Assembly: GCA_027623995.1 (NCBI GenBank)
Contig: JAQBUF010000008.1
Coordinates: 1 to 64,000 of the forward strand
From: Nitrospirota bacterium
GTDB taxonomy: Bacteria > Nitrospirota > Nitrospiria > Nitrospirales > UBA8639
DNA: 64,000 nucleotides
Reading direction: 5' to 3'
Part shown: positions 45,047 to 62,581 of the stretch, in pieces
How positions within the stretch are numbered: position 1 is the stretch's first letter
How the letters are laid out: each line of letters begins with the position of its first letter
Notes under the pieces: generated by a model
Told to the model about the DNA's origin: nothing
The model's input: the letters and a program-made list of their open reading frames with translations, nothing else
Databases searched by the model: none
Position numbers and translations under genes: made by a program

Positions 45047-45117
45047 TTCCCCCTTGTTCCTACCTAAAGTCTTATTTGGATTGTACCGACCTTCTGTTAT
45101 GCAACGGGGGACCTAAC

Positions 45118-47289
45118 ATGAGCAACGCAACACAACAGCACGCAACAGATCATAACATTCACTTTCCACGCTTACATGAACTCTCGATGAACGTCTGGTG
45201 GAGTTGGACACCTGTCGCTCGCGAAGTCTTTGAAAACCTGGATCAGACCTTGTGGCGACAGTCGCACCACAACCCCGTTAAACTACTCCAAGAAGTCATA
45301 CCTGAACGGATAGCAAGCCTCTCTCAGGATGTCACCTTCACTAGGAAGTATGAAGCTGCGGTGAAGGCCTATGATGAGTACATGGCGAAAACTGACCACT
45401 GGTTTGGGTCGAACTTTCCACAAGTCGCGAATGCGCCAATCGGTTATTTTTCAGCAGAATTTGGCCTACATAATTCCATCCCTATTTATAGCGGCGGACT
45501 CGGCGTGTTGGCAGGAGACCACTTTAAGGAAGCCAGTGATTTAGGTATTCCCTTGGTCGGCGTGAGCTTCATGTATTCTCAAGCGTACTTCCGACAGGTC
45601 ATTGGACCTGATGGGTGGCAAGAAGCGATCAATGAGCGATTCGACCGAACCTCCTCAGCCATTCAACCAGCCTTGCTCCCTACTGGGGAACAAGGCCAAA
45701 TCACTGTTCAATTAGGGGATCGTCAAGTTCATTGTTTGATTTGGTTCATTCAAGTCGGACGCCTTCGGCTGTATTTATTGGACACGGATGTCGCCGACAA
45801 TCAACCTGATGATCGAACCCTCTCTGCCCGTCTCTATGGCGGTGACAAAGAAACTCGCCTCTGCCAAGAAATCCTCTTAGGCATTGGTGGCGTCCGGGCG
45901 CTGAGATCTCTAGGTATCCAACCACGCATGTGGCATGCCAATGAAGGCCATGCGGCCTTTCTTAATTTGGAGCGTATGAAAGAGTTACTCCAACAAGGCT
46001 TGTCCTACGACGAAGCGTTGCCCCAGATTCGTGACAGCTCCCTGTTTACCACTCATACCCCCGTCCCAGCCGGGCACGATATTTTTTCCGAAGAGCTCAC
46101 CGAACAATACTTTTCTGCCTATTGGAAAGATATGGGCTTAAGCCGCGAGGACTTTTTTGGGCTAGGGCAACACCCTCAGGAAGACCCTGGCCAATTCCAT
46201 ATGACCGCCCTGGCTATTCGGCTATCCACTTCGATTAATGGTGTCAGCGAAGAACATGGGCGCGTATCGAGAACCATGTGGCACAGCATGTGGCCCGAGT
46301 GCTCGGAAGACCAAGTTCCCATTCAATTTGTCACCAACGGCGTCCATGTCCCAACGTGGATTGCTCCGGAGATGAGCCATCTATATTCGAAATATTTAGG
46401 GCCCCAGTGGCAGGATCAATCCGACGATGCCGCCCTGTGGCACCGAGTGCTGGATGTGCCTAATCATGAATTATGGGAAGTTCGAACATTTCTTAAACGC
46501 AAATTGCTAGGCTTCATCAGGCAACGGATCCAAAATGGGTGGACCCAAGGCCGGTTAGAGGCTCAACAGGTTCTTGCTGGCGGAGCCCTTCTCAATCCAT
46601 ACGCGCTGACCATTGGCTTTGGCCGACGTTTCGCCACGTACAAGCGGGCAAACCTCTTATTTTATGATCCAGACCGCCTCAAGGCCCTTCTTCAAAATCC
46701 TTGGCAACCGGTTCAATTTGTATTCGCGGGGAAAGCCCATCCTGCGGACACACCCGGGCAAGAGTTGATCCACGAAGTGTATCAGTTTGCCAAACGACAT
46801 GACTTTGGCGGACATATCACGTTCCTTGAAGACTATGACATGCATGTGGCCAAGTTCCTTGTCCAAGGAGTCGACGTGTGGCTGAACAATCCCCGCCCAC
46901 CACTCGAAGCAAGTGGGACCAGTGGTCAAAAGGCGGCCCTCAACGGAGTGCCCAATCTCAGCGTGTTGGATGGTTGGTGGAAAGAAGGCTATGATGGTTC
47001 CAATGGTTGGGCTTTTCCCTTTGCCACCGAAAGATTGGAAGAAGCCGCTCAGGACCGTCATGATGCCGAGGCCCTGCTCCATCTCTTAGAGCAGGAAGTC
47101 ATTCCTCTCTACTATCAGCGTGAACAGGATGGGATTCCACATGGATGGGTGAAGATTGTGAAAAATGCTATCCGCACCAATGCGCCACGGTTTAGTGCCA
47201 GACGCATGCTCAAAGATTATGTCCGCGAGTTTTATGCTTCGGAACGCACGATCAAAAGCCCAGTGCAACCATTAGAGCAAGTGCGTTAA
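45118..47289 (+). CDS. glgP: Alpha-glucan (glycogen) phosphorylase
   Basis: The enzyme splits glucose-1-phosphate from stored alpha-glucan. It begins with a DUF3417-type N-terminus (FPRLHELSMNVWWSWTPVAR), then FSAEFGLHNSIPIYSGGLGV, MWHANEGHAAF, TTHTPVPAGHD, FVTNGVHVPTW and GFGRRFATYKRANLL. The cofactor region reads EASGTSGQKAALNGVPNLSV: the PLP lysine is kept but the usual Met before it is Gln. The ATG at 45118 is chosen for its GGGGGA site; the product is 723 residues, typical of the short bacterial type. A strong terminator follows. Confidence 0.9.
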   Translation: MSNATQQHATDHNIHFPRLHELSMNVWWSWTPVAREVFENLDQTLWRQSHHNPVKLLQEVIPERIASLSQDVTFTRKYEAAVKAYDEYMAKTDHWFGSNFPQVANAPIGYFSAEFGLHNSIPIYSGGLGVLAGDHFKEASDLGIPLVGVSFMYSQAYFRQVIGPDGWQEAINERFDRTSSAIQPALLPTGEQGQITVQLGDRQVHCLIWFIQVGRLRLYLLDTDVADNQPDDRTLSARLYGGDKETRLCQEILLGIGGVRALRSLGIQPRMWHANEGHAAFLNLERMKELLQQGLSYDEALPQIRDSSLFTTHTPVPAGHDIFSEELTEQYFSAYWKDMGLSREDFFGLGQHPQEDPGQFHMTALAIRLSTSINGVSEEHGRVSRTMWHSMWPECSEDQVPIQFVTNGVHVPTWIAPEMSHLYSKYLGPQWQDQSDDAALWHRVLDVPNHELWEVRTFLKRKLLGFIRQRIQNGWTQGRLEAQQVLAGGALLNPYALTIGFGRRFATYKRANLLFYDPDRLKALLQNPWQPVQFVFAGKAHPADTPGQELIHEVYQFAKRHDFGGHITFLEDYDMHVAKFLVQGVDVWLNNPRPPLEASGTSGQKAALNGVPNLSVLDGWWKEGYDGSNGWAFPFATERLEEAAQDRHDAEALLHLLEQEVIPLYYQREQDGIPHGWVKIVKNAIRTNAPRFSARRMLKDYVREFYASERTIKSPVQPLEQVR

Positions 47290-56163: not shown

Positions 56164-57819
56164 ATGAAGCATGTGAGTCCGCTCGCAGGGAAACCAACTG
56201 AGCCTTCCATGCTCGCGAACATTCCCAAGTTGGTGACAGCGTATTACGCAGGTCGGCCAGATCCATCGGTGCCCGAGCAACGAGTAACATTCGGCACCTC
56301 AGGACATCGCGGCTCATCCTTCAAGAATTCCTTCAATGAAGCGCATATTCTCGCGATCACCCAAGCCGTCTGCCTCTATCGTCAGCAACAATCTATTGAC
56401 GGACCGCTCTTCCTGGGTATGGACACCCACGCGCTTTCCGAGCCTGCTTTTGCCAGTGCCCTCGAAGTGCTGGCGGCAAACGGGCTTGCGGTGATGATCG
56501 ATCGAGAGCAGGGCTATACCCCAACACCGGTTATCTCCCATGCCATCCTCACATACAATCGCGGGCGACGAACAGGTCTTGCCGACGGTATGGTGATTAC
56601 GCCCTCTCATAATCCTCCAGAAGACGGTGGCATCAAATATAACCCTCCACATGGTGGTCCCGCAGATACGCACGTGACCAACTGGATCGAGGAACGTGCG
56701 AATGCATTCCTTGCCGAGGACCTGCGTGGGATCATGCGGATTTCGTATGAACAGGCCCTCCGCGCTGCGACGACATCCCGATATGACTATGTCGGCTCTT
56801 ATGTTGGCGACCTTGGAGCCGTGATAGACATGGAGGTGATTCGGAACGCACGACTGGCCATTGGAGTAGATCCGCTAGGTGGTGCAGGAGTGGCGTATTG
56901 GGGACCTATCAGCGAGCGTTACGGTTTCGACGTGAACGTGGTGAATGATGCGGTCGATCCGACCTTTCGCTTCATGAGCGTGGACTGGGATGGGAAGATC
57001 CGAATGGACTGCTCATCACCGTATGCCATGGCTGGACTGATTGCCTTGAAAGATCGGTTCGACATCGCCTTTGCTAATGATACCGACCACGATCGGCATG
57101 GAATCGTCACACGCAGTGCTGGGCTGATGAATCCCAACCACTATTTGGCCGTGGCGATTTCTTATCTCTTTACACATCGTTCGGAATGGAGCGCGGATTC
57201 GGCAATCGGAAAGACAGTCGTGAGTAGTCGCATGATCGATCGAGTCGCTGGCAAGTTGGGACGACGTCTCGTTGAAGTGCCGGTGGGGTTCAAATGGTTT
57301 GTCGATGGGCTTCTTGATGGGTCCCTTGGCTTTGGGGGAGAAGAGAGTGCTGGGGCGTCCTTTCTTCGTCGTGACGGAACGGTGTGGACCACAGATAAAG
57401 ACGGCATCATTCTGGATCTTTTAGCCGCAGAAATGATGGCGAAAACAGGGCGGGATCCTAGTCAGCTCTACCTTGACCTCACGAACGAGTTGGGAGTTCC
57501 AGTCTATGAACGGATTGATGCTCCGGCCACATCGGCGCAGAAGGCCATTCTCAAACGGCTTTCGCCGCAACAAGTGCAGGCTTCCGAACTCGCGGGAGAG
57601 AAAATACAAGCGATCCTGACGGCGGCGCCAGGCAATGACAGCTCTATTGGGGGGCTCAAAGTGATTACTGAGAACGGTTGGTTTGCCGCCCGCCCATCGG
57701 GCACTGAAGATGTCTATAAGATTTACGCTGAAAGTTTCAAAGGAGAGGACCATCTCCACCAGATTCAGGAGGAAGCGCAGATTCTGATTGAGAAAGCCTT
57801 TTCCTCTCTCTCCTCTTAA
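56164..57819 (+). CDS. pgm: Phosphoglucomutase (alpha-D-glucose-specific)
   Basis: Converts glucose-1-phosphate and glucose-6-phosphate. [40 protein letters not shown] (phospho-Ser in TPSHNP, about residue 143), [12 protein letters not shown] (metal loop DxDxDR, about 302-309) and [15 protein letters not shown] are all intact, and [15 protein letters not shown] near the end binds the phosphate. The ATG at 56164 follows GGAGGAG and gives 551 residues, as for E. coli Pgm. A partner of the glucan phosphorylase in this window. Confidence 0.92.
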
Positions 57820-58658: not shown

Positions 58659-60974
58659 CTAGACCAATTCAGTTCCGTGCATTCGAGCGAACAGCTCCCA
58701 ATTAAATGGTTTTGGTGCTACGGCATGCAGGGGGATTGGCTGAATGGTTCCCGAGTCTCGGTAGGCTAACATGCATCCGATGACTTGGTCGGGTTGTTCA
58801 ACCAAACGCCGAATGGCTTCGAAGGCTAAATGTTGGGCCATGGTTTTATCTATGGGAGTAGGGGAAGCCCCTCGTAGCGTATGGCCTAGAATGGTGGCCT
58901 TGGTCGCCACTGAGAGAGGGTAAGGCCCAGATCGTGTTTGAAGGTGAGTCCACTGGGAAATCCTACTGGCAACATAGTCCACCAGCCCATGGACTCCGCC
59001 CTCTGGATGATGATGGTGAGGTGTGCGCTCGGCGACAATAATGATATGGCTTTTATTCCGGACGCCCAACGTCTGCTTCAATGTTCCCAGAATGACCTCC
59101 TCGATATAGGCATCCGGATCGGGATGTTCATTGACCAACAGTCCCTCAGCGCGTGCTTGGTAGGCACACATTAAGGCCAGGTGGCCTGATCCTGCCCCCA
59201 TGACCTCCACGAAAAACACACTCCCCATTGCCGCACTCGTCGCTTTCAACGACTCGATTGATTGGTTGGCCAGGGATACAGCTGATTGAAGCCCTAGTGA
59301 CGTGGTTCCGGCGATGTTGTCGTCGATCGAACCTGGAATCCCGACGACCTGTACACCAAACCGTTCATAGATGGCACGAGCCCCACGCATGCTTCCGTCC
59401 CCTCCCATTACGATTAACGCCCCATCCTCCATGTACGGTGTGAGATGATGTATGGCGGCTAGTTGCACCTCTTCATCTTTAAAATCTTCAAACCGGCTAC
59501 TTCCAATCGGGCTGCTGGCGTGATTGCTCATGCCACGCGTGTCCTGTTCTGTCCCCAACTCAATCCAATCGTTCGCCAAGCCTAGAAATCCATGTTGCAC
59601 GAAATAGACTTCGAGGCCCAATCGGTTCCCTGTGACGCGGAGTTCCTTCAAGGCCGCACCGGCTCCAGCAAAATCCCCACCGGAAACCAGGGCGACGAGC
59701 CGCCGAATTTGACGCGGTTTCAGGGTGACCTTCCCGCGACGGTCTTGTTCCACCGTCATCCAGGCCTCGCGGGCCGCTCGTTCTCGCTCTGAAAGACCGA
59801 CTGCGGTGGAATACCCTGATAATTGCCCATGCTCAAAGGTCAGGAGCACGACGTTGTCCTGTCCTTCCTTATAGGCTCCAAATTCTGAAAAGGCCTCACT
59901 GAACGGACGAGGATCCAGAAAAATTAAGAGCGCCCGCAATGTCGAGCTGTGCGTATACAAACATAGGACTTTTCCCCGATGGGCCTGGCCTAATTGATGG
60001 AACCCATCGACCAACTCCACATAGAGTTCAAAAAACGAATGGCCTCCCGGATAACTGTACAGCGGATGTTTAATCAGGCGCTGGGCTGTCTTCGTCTCGA
60101 CTCCAAAGGCCTTGGCGGCTTCTTCTATTTCTACGGTTTTCTCAATACCGGTGGCCCATCCGAAGTCTTGTGATTCTAATGCACATTCAATGACGGGCTG
60201 CGTCGCCTTGGCTGTATCGGGGGACAGGATAGCGACCACCCGTTCAAAGAGTTGACGAGTATTGGGACTGTTACTCACCATATGGATAAAGGATTCAGGA
60301 TTCAGATAATTATGCAGGTGGAGAAAATCCAGTTGTCTTCCTACCAGGCCTAACGTCCTGGCAAGGGCGGTTCCGATGGTCTCAGCCTTGGGAATGCCCC
60401 GCTCAGGGTCCAGAATGTTGCTGAACCGGCGCCCCACACGAAATGTCTTACTGTCCATCTGCGACACTCCATGTCGCATGGTCAGAAAAATGGTCCGGTC
60501 GCTTAAATCCCTGGGCATCAGCCAAAACAGGTCGTTTCCTATGTCCAGCACTATTCGACCTTCAGCCAAATTCGGAGTCATCTGGTCGCGTGGTACGATT
60601 GCTACGGGGCGACGTCGTGTTGGTTTGAGCGTGGCTCCAATTGGCGCTCGCATTAAGGACGAAAGCTCGCCTTGGGCGAGGAGCTGATTCCAAGCAGCGA
60701 AAAACACCACATCATCTCCTCCGCATTCTTGTTGAATCAGCTGGTGTCTTGCGTTTCGGTATGCTGCGGCATTGGCAAAGCCTCCTTGCGCCTCCTGGAC
60801 AAACGCTCTGATTGCGGCCATGGCCTCTCGTGCACGTTGTGGGCGATCTTCCGATGAAGCTGGAAGGGGAGGTAGTTTCACCCCCTCTACGGGCGGACGC
60901 TGAGCCATTGCCTCTCCATAGGAGAGGAGACCCTGGATAGTCACGAAATCTAGTGTTTCCGCTTCTGCATTCAT
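58659..60974 (-). CDS. Histidine phosphatase / phosphofructokinase fusion
   Basis: 771 residues in three parts. Residues 1-150 are helical and unassigned. About 160-400 is a histidine-phosphatase fold: LTMRHG with catalytic His168, YPGGHSFFELYVELVDGF and THSSTL with His342, most like the FBPase-2 branch. About 425-771 is a PfkA-type domain: LVSGGDFAG, MGGDGS (524-528, ATP type), GIPGSIDDNIAGT (545-557) and VEVMGAGSGHLAL. Compared with PfkA, TIDND became SIDDN (base Asp kept), MGR became MGA and, in the phosphatase, GES became GHS. Both activities are therefore uncertain. Divergent from pyk. Confidence 0.85.
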   Translation of the reverse strand: MNAEAETLDFVTIQGLLSYGEAMAQRPPVEGVKLPPLPASSEDRPQRAREAMAAIRAFVQEAQGGFANAAAYRNARHQLIQQECGGDDVVFFAAWNQLLAQGELSSLMRAPIGATLKPTRRRPVAIVPRDQMTPNLAEGRIVLDIGNDLFWLMPRDLSDRTIFLTMRHGVSQMDSKTFRVGRRFSNILDPERGIPKAETIGTALARTLGLVGRQLDFLHLHNYLNPESFIHMVSNSPNTRQLFERVVAILSPDTAKATQPVIECALESQDFGWATGIEKTVEIEEAAKAFGVETKTAQRLIKHPLYSYPGGHSFFELYVELVDGFHQLGQAHRGKVLCLYTHSSTLRALLIFLDPRPFSEAFSEFGAYKEGQDNVVLLTFEHGQLSGYSTAVGLSERERAAREAWMTVEQDRRGKVTLKPRQIRRLVALVSGGDFAGAGAALKELRVTGNRLGLEVYFVQHGFLGLANDWIELGTEQDTRGMSNHASSPIGSSRFEDFKDEEVQLAAIHHLTPYMEDGALIVMGGDGSMRGARAIYERFGVQVVGIPGSIDDNIAGTTSLGLQSAVSLANQSIESLKATSAAMGSVFFVEVMGAGSGHLALMCAYQARAEGLLVNEHPDPDAYIEEVILGTLKQTLGVRNKSHIIIVAERTPHHHHPEGGVHGLVDYVASRISQWTHLQTRSGPYPLSVATKATILGHTLRGASPTPIDKTMAQHLAFEAIRRLVEQPDQVIGCMLAYRDSGTIQPIPLHAVAPKPFNWELFARMHGTELV

Positions 60975-61180
60975 TCTTCACCTCATTTTCTAGTTGCCAA
61001 CCGGCCGAACGCGATAATTTTTGTCGCCTAATGTTTTTGAGCTCTGTTGTATATTGAGTGCCTGACTTGGAAGGTCATGGCATCTTTGCCTATTCGTCAG
61101 GGTCCCTGGCCTCAACATCATTGACCTATGATGGAAATAACTCCAAGATTAGAGAGATGTTATCTTCCCAGGAAGGACTT

Positions 61181-62581
61181 ATGCAAAAAACACGAATCAT
61201 CTGCACAATCGGACCGGCGACAGAATCTTACGAAATGTTGCGCAAAATGTATGATGCCGGCATGAACATTGTTCGGTTGAACATGTCTCATGGCGATCAC
61301 GAATCCCATGCGAAAGTCATCAAACATATCAAGACGCTCAATAAAAAAGTCAAATTTCCTATTCCGATTATCCTGGACACGCAAGGCCCTGAAATCCGGA
61401 CCGGGGATTTGGTGGCCGATCTTGATTTACAGCAAGGCTCTATTGTGTCCATCACCGCGCGCGGGTCTCAGGATGTGGAAGAAAGTTCTATTCACATCAA
61501 CTATGCCGATTTAATCGAGACCGTGAATGTGGGAGATAAAATTACGGTGGATAATGGGTTGATCAATTTTGAGGTGTTGGAAAAACACGATCGCCTTATG
61601 CAGTGCCGTGTGATTGATGGGGGTATCTTGAAAAGCAAGCGCCATGTCAATTTGCCAGGGATTCGTGTCAATCTTCCTGCGATTACCCACAAGGACGAAA
61701 AAGATATTGTGTTTGGCTTGGCCGCAGATGTGGATTTTATTGCCCTGTCTTTCGTTCGAGAGGTTGAGGATATTCGGCAATTAAAACACCTCATGGGTAG
61801 CAAAGCCGGAAGAATTAAAATCATTGCGAAAATTGAAGATCAGGAAGGGGTTCGCAACCTGGAAGACATTATTCAGGAATCGGATGGCATTATGGTGGCT
61901 CGTGGAGATTTGGGCGCGGAAATTGATCTGGAGGATTTGCCGAATGTGCAGCGCCGAATTGTCCGGCTCTGCGCGGAATATGGAAAACGCGTGATTGTCG
62001 CCACCCATCTCCTGGAATCGATGATTCAAAATCCCATCCCCACCCGCGCCGAAGTGACGGACGTGGCCAATGCGATTTATGAAGAAGTCGATGCGGTGAT
62101 GTTATCTGGAGAAACCACGGTCGGGAAATATCCGATTAAATGTGTGGATCATCTGCGAAAAATTGCGATCAAAACCGAAGCGATTCCAGGCTTGCAATTT
62201 GCGAAACAATTAAGATCGACACAAGACAAACAGCAATTGGCCATCGCGGCGGTCCAGCTCGCCGAAGGGTTGCAGGCCAAAGGGATTGTGGTCATTACCA
62301 GAAGAGGCATCATGGCCGATTTCGTCTCCAATTGCCGTCCTTTTTCCACGAACATTTATGCCTTTACCAATGGGAGTCAGTCTCGTCGGACCATGACGCT
62401 CAATCGAGGCGTGTTTCCCTTCAGAATCAATTTTAGCTCAGATCCTGAAAAAACATTGCAAACGGCCTTTAGGATTTTAAAAGAACGTGAACATTTTGCC
62501 TCAGGGGAAAAGGTCGTGATTATCTCGGACGTGTTGGCACAACAACGGGTCGATTCCATTCAAATTCGAGAACTTCCATAA
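61181..62581 (+). CDS. pyk: Pyruvate kinase
   Basis: Makes pyruvate and ATP from phosphoenolpyruvate. CTIGPATESYEML, RLNMSHGDHESH, LDTQGPEIRTG, IIAKIEDQEGVRNLEDII (catalytic Lys region), GIMVARGDLGAEIDLEDLPN and VMLSGETTVGKYP are intact. The C-terminal domain (residues about 345-467) ends EKVVIISDVL and is normal. The ATG at 61181 follows AGGAAGGA; the upstream 41 codons are not needed. 467 residues. It is divergent from the phosphofructokinase fusion. Confidence 0.93.
   Translation: MQKTRIICTIGPATESYEMLRKMYDAGMNIVRLNMSHGDHESHAKVIKHIKTLNKKVKFPIPIILDTQGPEIRTGDLVADLDLQQGSIVSITARGSQDVEESSIHINYADLIETVNVGDKITVDNGLINFEVLEKHDRLMQCRVIDGGILKSKRHVNLPGIRVNLPAITHKDEKDIVFGLAADVDFIALSFVREVEDIRQLKHLMGSKAGRIKIIAKIEDQEGVRNLEDIIQESDGIMVARGDLGAEIDLEDLPNVQRRIVRLCAEYGKRVIVATHLLESMIQNPIPTRAEVTDVANAIYEEVDAVMLSGETTVGKYPIKCVDHLRKIAIKTEAIPGLQFAKQLRSTQDKQQLAIAAVQLAEGLQAKGIVVITRRGIMADFVSNCRPFSTNIYAFTNGSQSRRTMTLNRGVFPFRINFSSDPEKTLQTAFRILKEREHFASGEKVVIISDVLAQQRVDSIQIRELP

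Follow-up and report, generated by a model that had tools for sequence, protein, structure and literature searches.

What does a protein do that carries a histidine phosphatase-like half and a PfkA-like phosphofructokinase (PFK) half on one chain: interconvert fructose phosphates in both directions, bind them without turnover, or something else? Such a protein is encoded in the window, the whole 64,000-nucleotide stretch of a Nitrospirota contig analysed here. A first-pass annotation described one 771-residue two-domain protein and named a gene-model error joining two proteins among the findings that would refute it. The window translates as a single uninterrupted reading frame of 771 codons (Table 1), and full-length, open orthologues with 62–90% identity were found in named Nitrospirota genomes throughout the class (the one to which GTDB assigns Nitrospira), one of them on the closed chromosome of Candidatus Nitrospira defluvii. 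A gene-model error was ruled out by these intact orthologues. A promoter scan of the region gave no signal above chance.

Table 1 Features of the fusion gene and its neighbourhood in the window. Counts refer to orthologues carrying the stated residue.
Feature	Position	Strand	Evidence
Fusion gene, histidine-phosphatase-like and PfkA-like halves, 771 aa	58659..60974	-	Single ORF; intact full-length orthologues across the class
N-terminal helical region, residues 1-125, contains VFFAAWNQLL	60600..60974	-	AlphaFold helices 13-25, 44-63, 69-83, 88-100
Histidine phosphatase branch 1 fold, residues about 150-395	59790..60527	-	AlphaFold model pLDDT 89; Foldseek PDB; Pfam His_Phos_1
R167-H168-G169, nucleophile His motif	60468..60476	-	Invariant 84/84
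S234-N-S-P-N238-T239, second catalytic Arg position = Asn238	60258..60275	-	N 84/84; aligns with Arg of SVLKRA, E. coli GpmA
L266-E267-S268, proton-donor Glu position = Ser268	60171..60179	-	S 83/84; E/D at 267 83/84; aligns with LNE of GpmA
P309-G-G-H312-S313, GES-like motif	60036..60050	-	Glu position = His (66) or Asn (18) in 84 orthologues
T341-H342, second catalytic His	59949..59954	-	H 84/84
PfkA-type phosphofructokinase domain, residues about 424-751	58722..59705	-	Pfam PF00365; Foldseek best matches bacterial PFKs
GGDGS 524-528, ATP-type Gly104 and Mg Asp103 kept	59391..59405	-	84/84
SIDDN 549-553, base Asp127 = D551 kept, Asp129 = N553	59316..59330	-	D551 84/84, N553 83/84
Ser585 replacing Arg162	59220..59222	-	S 81, T 3 of 84
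M592-G593-A594, MGR arginine (Arg171) to Ala	59193..59201	-	A 84/84
K692 (Arg243 to Lys), H698 (His249 kept), R701 (Arg252 kept)	58872..58901	-	83/83 each
Pyruvate kinase (pyk), divergent neighbour	61058..62581	+	TIGR01064 511 bits
Phosphoglucomutase (pgm), neighbour on other side	56164..57819	+	TIGR01132 931 bits; adjoins fusion in G001 too
Alpha-glucan phosphorylase, 11 kb away, context only	45076..47289	+	TIGR02094 828 bits

Several loci carry broken or partial copies. A frameshift splits the fusion of Candidatus Manganitrophus GAC4 (L064:5941-8318) and of G097:C1 into 482-aa and 393-aa frames, through either a sequencing error or a real split; since sister genomes have the fusion intact, we tentatively favour an error. 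Decay of the phosphatase half in some species was considered and rejected, because the sole suspect (G009/L050) retains the protein sequence in stretches across frames, and its frameshifts look like sequencing errors. In G007, fragments from the two ends of a divergent fusion gene occur at four contig ends (C37:162158-162448 [L027], C51:4-294, C6:5-112, and C26:5-112), which would fit an assembly broken by two copies that share an identical middle. A partial second copy, covering the C-terminal 80 residues with 77% identity and one stop, sits ca. 4.6 kb downstream of the intact gene at L033:12908-13135 (G023:C44:4128-4370).

The assignment of the N-terminal half to the histidine phosphatases was borne out, although the window protein itself falls under the Pfam His_Phos_1 cut-off (14.2–16.1 bits against 21.7). 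All 25 orthologues scanned matched this family (best E 3e-5), as did 51 of 52 members. The AlphaFold model of residues 1–414, built with an alignment of 52 sequences, reached a pLDDT of 89 and a pTM of 0.88, and Foldseek placed it against phosphoglycerate mutases (PGM), CobC, TIGAR, PhoE, and PFKFB in the PDB (TM up to 0.78 on the target). The full-length model was of moderate confidence (pLDDT 71, pTM 0.50). Residues 1–125 had no Pfam match. The N-terminal half is predicted by the model to be a branch-1 histidine phosphatase fold that is not specifically FBPase-2-like; PFKFB is indeed among the matches, as the first-pass label implied, but PGM, CobC, TIGAR, and PhoE match as well, and the Pfam scan of the fusion found no P-loop 6-phosphofructo-2-kinase (6PF2K) domain.

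In histidine phosphatases, a second Arg and a proton-donor Glu take part in catalysis; the donor is the Glu of the LNE(R/I) motif, not the Glu of GES. Profile alignment to GpmA, CobC, and YtjC of E. coli (E=2.6e-6), together with a HMMER alignment to GpmA for the proton donor, assigned these two positions to Asn238 and Ser268. The branch-1 catalytic set is thus incomplete: the RHG motif and the second His are retained, the second Arg is Asn, and the donor is Ser, so that two of the five catalytic residues are gone in nearly every orthologue. Glu/Asp267, beside Ser268, might be a substitute donor. The first-pass annotation had taken the His in the GES-like motif for a change of the catalytic acid; His or Asn does occupy that position, but it is not that of the catalytic acid, and the replacement of the second Arg had been missed.

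These losses bear on the idea that fructose bisphosphate made by the kinase half is hydrolysed by the phosphatase half, as an analogue of PFK-1/FBPase or of PFK-2/FBPase-2. Two folds on one chain beside pyk would suit such a switch, and the conserved RHG His, second His, and Glu/Asp267 might support residual hydrolysis, yet the second Arg is absent from every orthologue and the usual donor from all but one. Of 60 relatives, 57, the window genome included, have a class I FBPase, which means that FBP hydrolysis is already provided for; GlpX was found in none of the 60. The protein has no P-loop domain that would make F2,6BP. Like PFKFB, the fusion carries a kinase together with a branch-1 histidine phosphatase on a single chain, with a presumed link to sugar phosphates. 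The kinase of PFKFB is an N-terminal P-loop domain, whereas that of the fusion is PFK-1-like (PF00365) and C-terminal, and the catalytic Arg and Glu are missing from its phosphatase. Opposing activities on one chain, as first proposed, are hence poorly supported; because active-site residues are changed in both halves (those of the kinase half are given below), a simple PFK/FBPase-2 switch is unlikely, and we consider any bifunctional switch improbable. Replacement of FBPase by the fusion was rejected on the presence of class I FBPase in the same 57 relatives.

A stand-alone relative of the phosphatase half was found at L146:1216-2625 in G352, a genome of another class of the phylum, and was the only one among 296 genomes of the phylum. 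This 469-aa histidine phosphatase has in common with the fusion the N-terminal helical region (LFYLAWNGLL against VFFAAWNQLL in the fusion), RHG, the Asn-Thr that replaces the second Arg motif, and a KEGQD motif. In contrast to the fusion it has no PFK domain, it is 25% identical, and it passes the His_Phos_1 cut-off (28.6 bits) that the window protein does not reach. Since the relative has the helical region, Asn-Thr, and KEGQD, the atypical phosphatase type may be older than the fusion. A plasmid collection searched with the N-terminal half of the fusion and with this relative gave no match.

The kinase half matched Pfam PF00365 at residues 427–722 (E=2e-57, 194.9 bits against a cut-off of 30.9), and Foldseek ranked bacterial PFKs at the top in the PDB (TM about 0.8 on the target). 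We compared its residues, in PfkA literature numbering, with those of E. coli PfkA in 84 distinct orthologues. On the donor side, G11, R72, D103, G104, and S105 were invariant, as was the base D127. G104 and G124 were both present in 84/84, so the PPi-type GGDD and Lys124 signature of PPi-dependent PFK is absent. On the acceptor side, M169, G170, and E222 were retained in 84/84 and H249 and R252 in 83/83, whereas four acceptor-handling residues were replaced in a fixed way: R162S/T (84/84), R171A (84/84), R243K (83/83), and D129N (83/84). The single exception at position 129, L185, keeps Asp and is the first branch among the fusions in a small tree. The effector residues R21, R25, R54, R211, K213, and H215 were all replaced, and the usual ADP/PEP effector site is gone. 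The fusion thus shares with PfkA of E. coli and G. stearothermophilus the fold, GGDGS, Gly124, Asp127, Arg72, Glu222, His249, and Arg252, and differs from it in the four acceptor-side replacements, in the effector residues, and in the addition of a phosphatase-fold N-terminus of about 420 residues.

The motifs listed in the first-pass annotation (RHG His168, His342, GGDGS, the base in SIDDN, and MGA) were as described and conserved across the 84 orthologues. Its reading of TIDND as SIDDN needs dividing: D129N is shared, but N128D is local (19/84), most orthologues having (S/T)IDNN. It had overlooked R162S, R243K, and the loss of the effector site.

In PfkA, Arg162 of the adjacent subunit binds the F6P phosphate (PMC12203962) and Asp129 binds Mg (PMC10339645). 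PPi-PFKs in which Arg162 is replaced phosphorylate F6P and also S7P (PMC10339645), so replacing R162 is not by itself enough to stop catalysis. D129N with R171A is a more unusual pair than R162S. S7P phosphorylation in place of transaldolase was considered and is unsupported by gene absence, as 58 of 60 relatives have a member of the transaldolase family.

Another account would make the fusion a standard ATP-dependent 6-phosphofructokinase whose N-terminal domain is decorative and whose replaced residues matter little. No other PF00365 gene occurs in the window genome, which is 99.7% complete, and adjacency of pfk and pyk is typical of glycolytic loci. However, both NCBIfam PfkA equivalog cut-offs were missed (TIGR02482, 179.5 against 371 bits; NF002872, 183.6 against 253 bits), and the four acceptor-site residues are replaced, whereas 11 stand-alone PFKs of the same class that we examined all keep D129 and R162, and all but one, which has Lys, keep R171. 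We give this account little credence. In four stand-alone PfkA proteins of the class (ca. 330 aa; L168, L171, L172, and L173), GGDGS reads GGNGS or GGTGS, the Mg-binding Asp103 being replaced, and the remaining active-site residues checked are canonical except for one R171K.

Changes at positions 129 and 171 are also known from the C-terminal half of yeast and mammalian PFK-1, which has neither catalysis nor an ATP pocket and serves to sense F2,6BP (PMC12203962). Like the fusion, this half has the PFK fold with Asp129 changed to Asn and Arg171 to a small residue; that of muscle PFK reads SNN and MGG there. This likeness, together with the phosphatase half lacking its second Arg and proton donor, supports an alternative in which neither half turns over at a useful rate the phosphorylated metabolites and ATP that the two bind. 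The protein would then be a sensor or effector adjusting glycolysis, e.g., via pyruvate kinase or another PFK. Another PFK is indeed present in most genomes with the fusion. On the other hand, the regulatory half of muscle PFK has lost the base Asp127 and the ATP site, both of which are invariant in the 84 fusion sequences, and the fusion has no tandem PFK duplication. Some genomes, moreover, keep the fusion as their only PF00365 gene. Such a double pseudo-enzyme is the main rival of the altered kinase preferred below, but less likely than it. The data are compatible with the pair suggested at first, a regulatory one that would bind fructose phosphates without turning them over, and also with an active, altered kinase, given the invariant ATP site and base.

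The link to Nitrospirota was substantiated by the occurrence of the fusion in 118 of 197 sampled genomes of the class; a phylum-wide scan with the N-terminal half gave strong matches only within this class, and the fusion was not found elsewhere in the phylum. Counting PF00365 genes across the 197 genomes, 93 have the fusion and another PFK, 25 the fusion only, 39 another only, and 40 neither; the association with another PFK (93/118) has an odds ratio of 3.8 that is not phylogeny-corrected. Of the fusion-only genomes, 13 are at least 97% complete. The 25 genomes indicate that the fusion needs no other PFK, and the 39 and the 40 that the gene is dispensable. Within the PF00365 family, which these counts cover, the fusion shows no simple dependence on another PFK and is no simple substitute for one. 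In genus g4 of the window's family (e.g., G005, G012, and G018; about 2–3 Mb), no sampled genome has a PF00365 gene, and no glucan phosphorylase was found in the g4 genomes checked, which suggests a loss of sugar catabolism in this genus.

Both halves are maintained under purifying selection, with dN/dS of 0.02–0.06 in the kinase half and 0.08–0.17 in the phosphatase half. The fusion kinases group as a single clade (support 100/100). Its stem is long, at 3.4 changes per column, and the branches that follow are short, which is the pattern of a functional shift. The clade lies nearer to PfkA than to the PPi types, its exact attachment being unsure given the long stem. The fusion most likely arose once and is specific to one class.

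The neighbourhood was as first reported, with pyk beside the gene and pgm nearby. pyk adjoins the fusion in most loci, usually divergently and sometimes in other orientations, and this adjacency is kept even where pyk is only 36–42% identical to that of the window. Alpha-glucan phosphorylase occurs in 39 of 60 relatives, namely 24 of 26 with the fusion versus 15 of 34 without it, in our own tally, which is confounded by phylogeny.

Taken together, the residues kept and replaced point away from an ordinary glycolytic enzyme; more probably, the fusion is a specialised kinase or sensor of sugar phosphates. Our tentative preference, held with slightly less than even confidence, is for an ATP kinase of the PFK fold whose turnover or acceptor has changed, joined to a mostly non-catalytic phosphatase-fold binding module. 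We prefer an altered kinase because the base and the ATP site are strictly kept while the acceptor side is equally strictly rebuilt. The low dN/dS of both halves, the long stem, the canonical residues in the stand-alone PFKs, the 25 genomes with no other PF00365 gene, the persistent pyk adjacency with pgm and alpha-glucan phosphorylase in the same window, and the activity of PPi-PFKs with replaced Arg162 (PMC10339645) are all in its favour. Against it, the Mg-binding Asp129 and the near-universal MGR Arg are both lost, at positions also changed in the non-catalytic half of muscle PFK, so that turnover could be abolished, and the gene is dispensable.

As an altered kinase, the PFK half would still bind ATP-Mg and a phosphorylated ketose and keep its general base, with the acceptor and phosphoryl-transfer side rebuilt by R162S/T, R243K, R171A, and D129N. 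It would not be regulated in the manner of PfkA, the ADP/PEP effector site being gone. The phosphatase half would most likely bind a phosphorylated metabolite and tune or assemble the kinase half without fast hydrolysis. The fusion may then act with pyruvate kinase on a sugar-catabolic route, probably glucan-derived, in autotrophic nitrifiers. A more speculative proposal, which we regard as somewhat unlikely, is a metabolic sensor that combines a PFK-1 fold with a histidine-phosphatase fold, two enzymes of opposite type that have been disabled or slowed. It would respond to sugar phosphate and ATP and steer nitrifiers towards either glucan breakdown or CO2-derived gluconeogenesis, as an independently evolved counterpart of the regulatory pair PFKFB and PFK-1 on one chain.

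The architecture is new, with known domains within a known superfamily; we found no description of a phosphatase-PFK fusion in the open-access literature searched and no mention of one in a 2025 review of the PFK superfamily (PMC12203962). Complete pathways for glycolysis and gluconeogenesis are reported from the genomes of Nitrospira and relatives (PMC8115632), and control of glycolysis in these bacteria appears little explored. Many nitrite-oxidising bacteria carry this conserved fusion beside pyk, and its two active sites lack the same textbook residues in almost all species. If the sole PFK-family protein of many such organisms is a remodelled fusion, its automatic annotation as 6-phosphofructokinase would be unsafe, and the fusion would offer a clean natural case of PFK active-site rewiring in which the base and the ATP site are retained.
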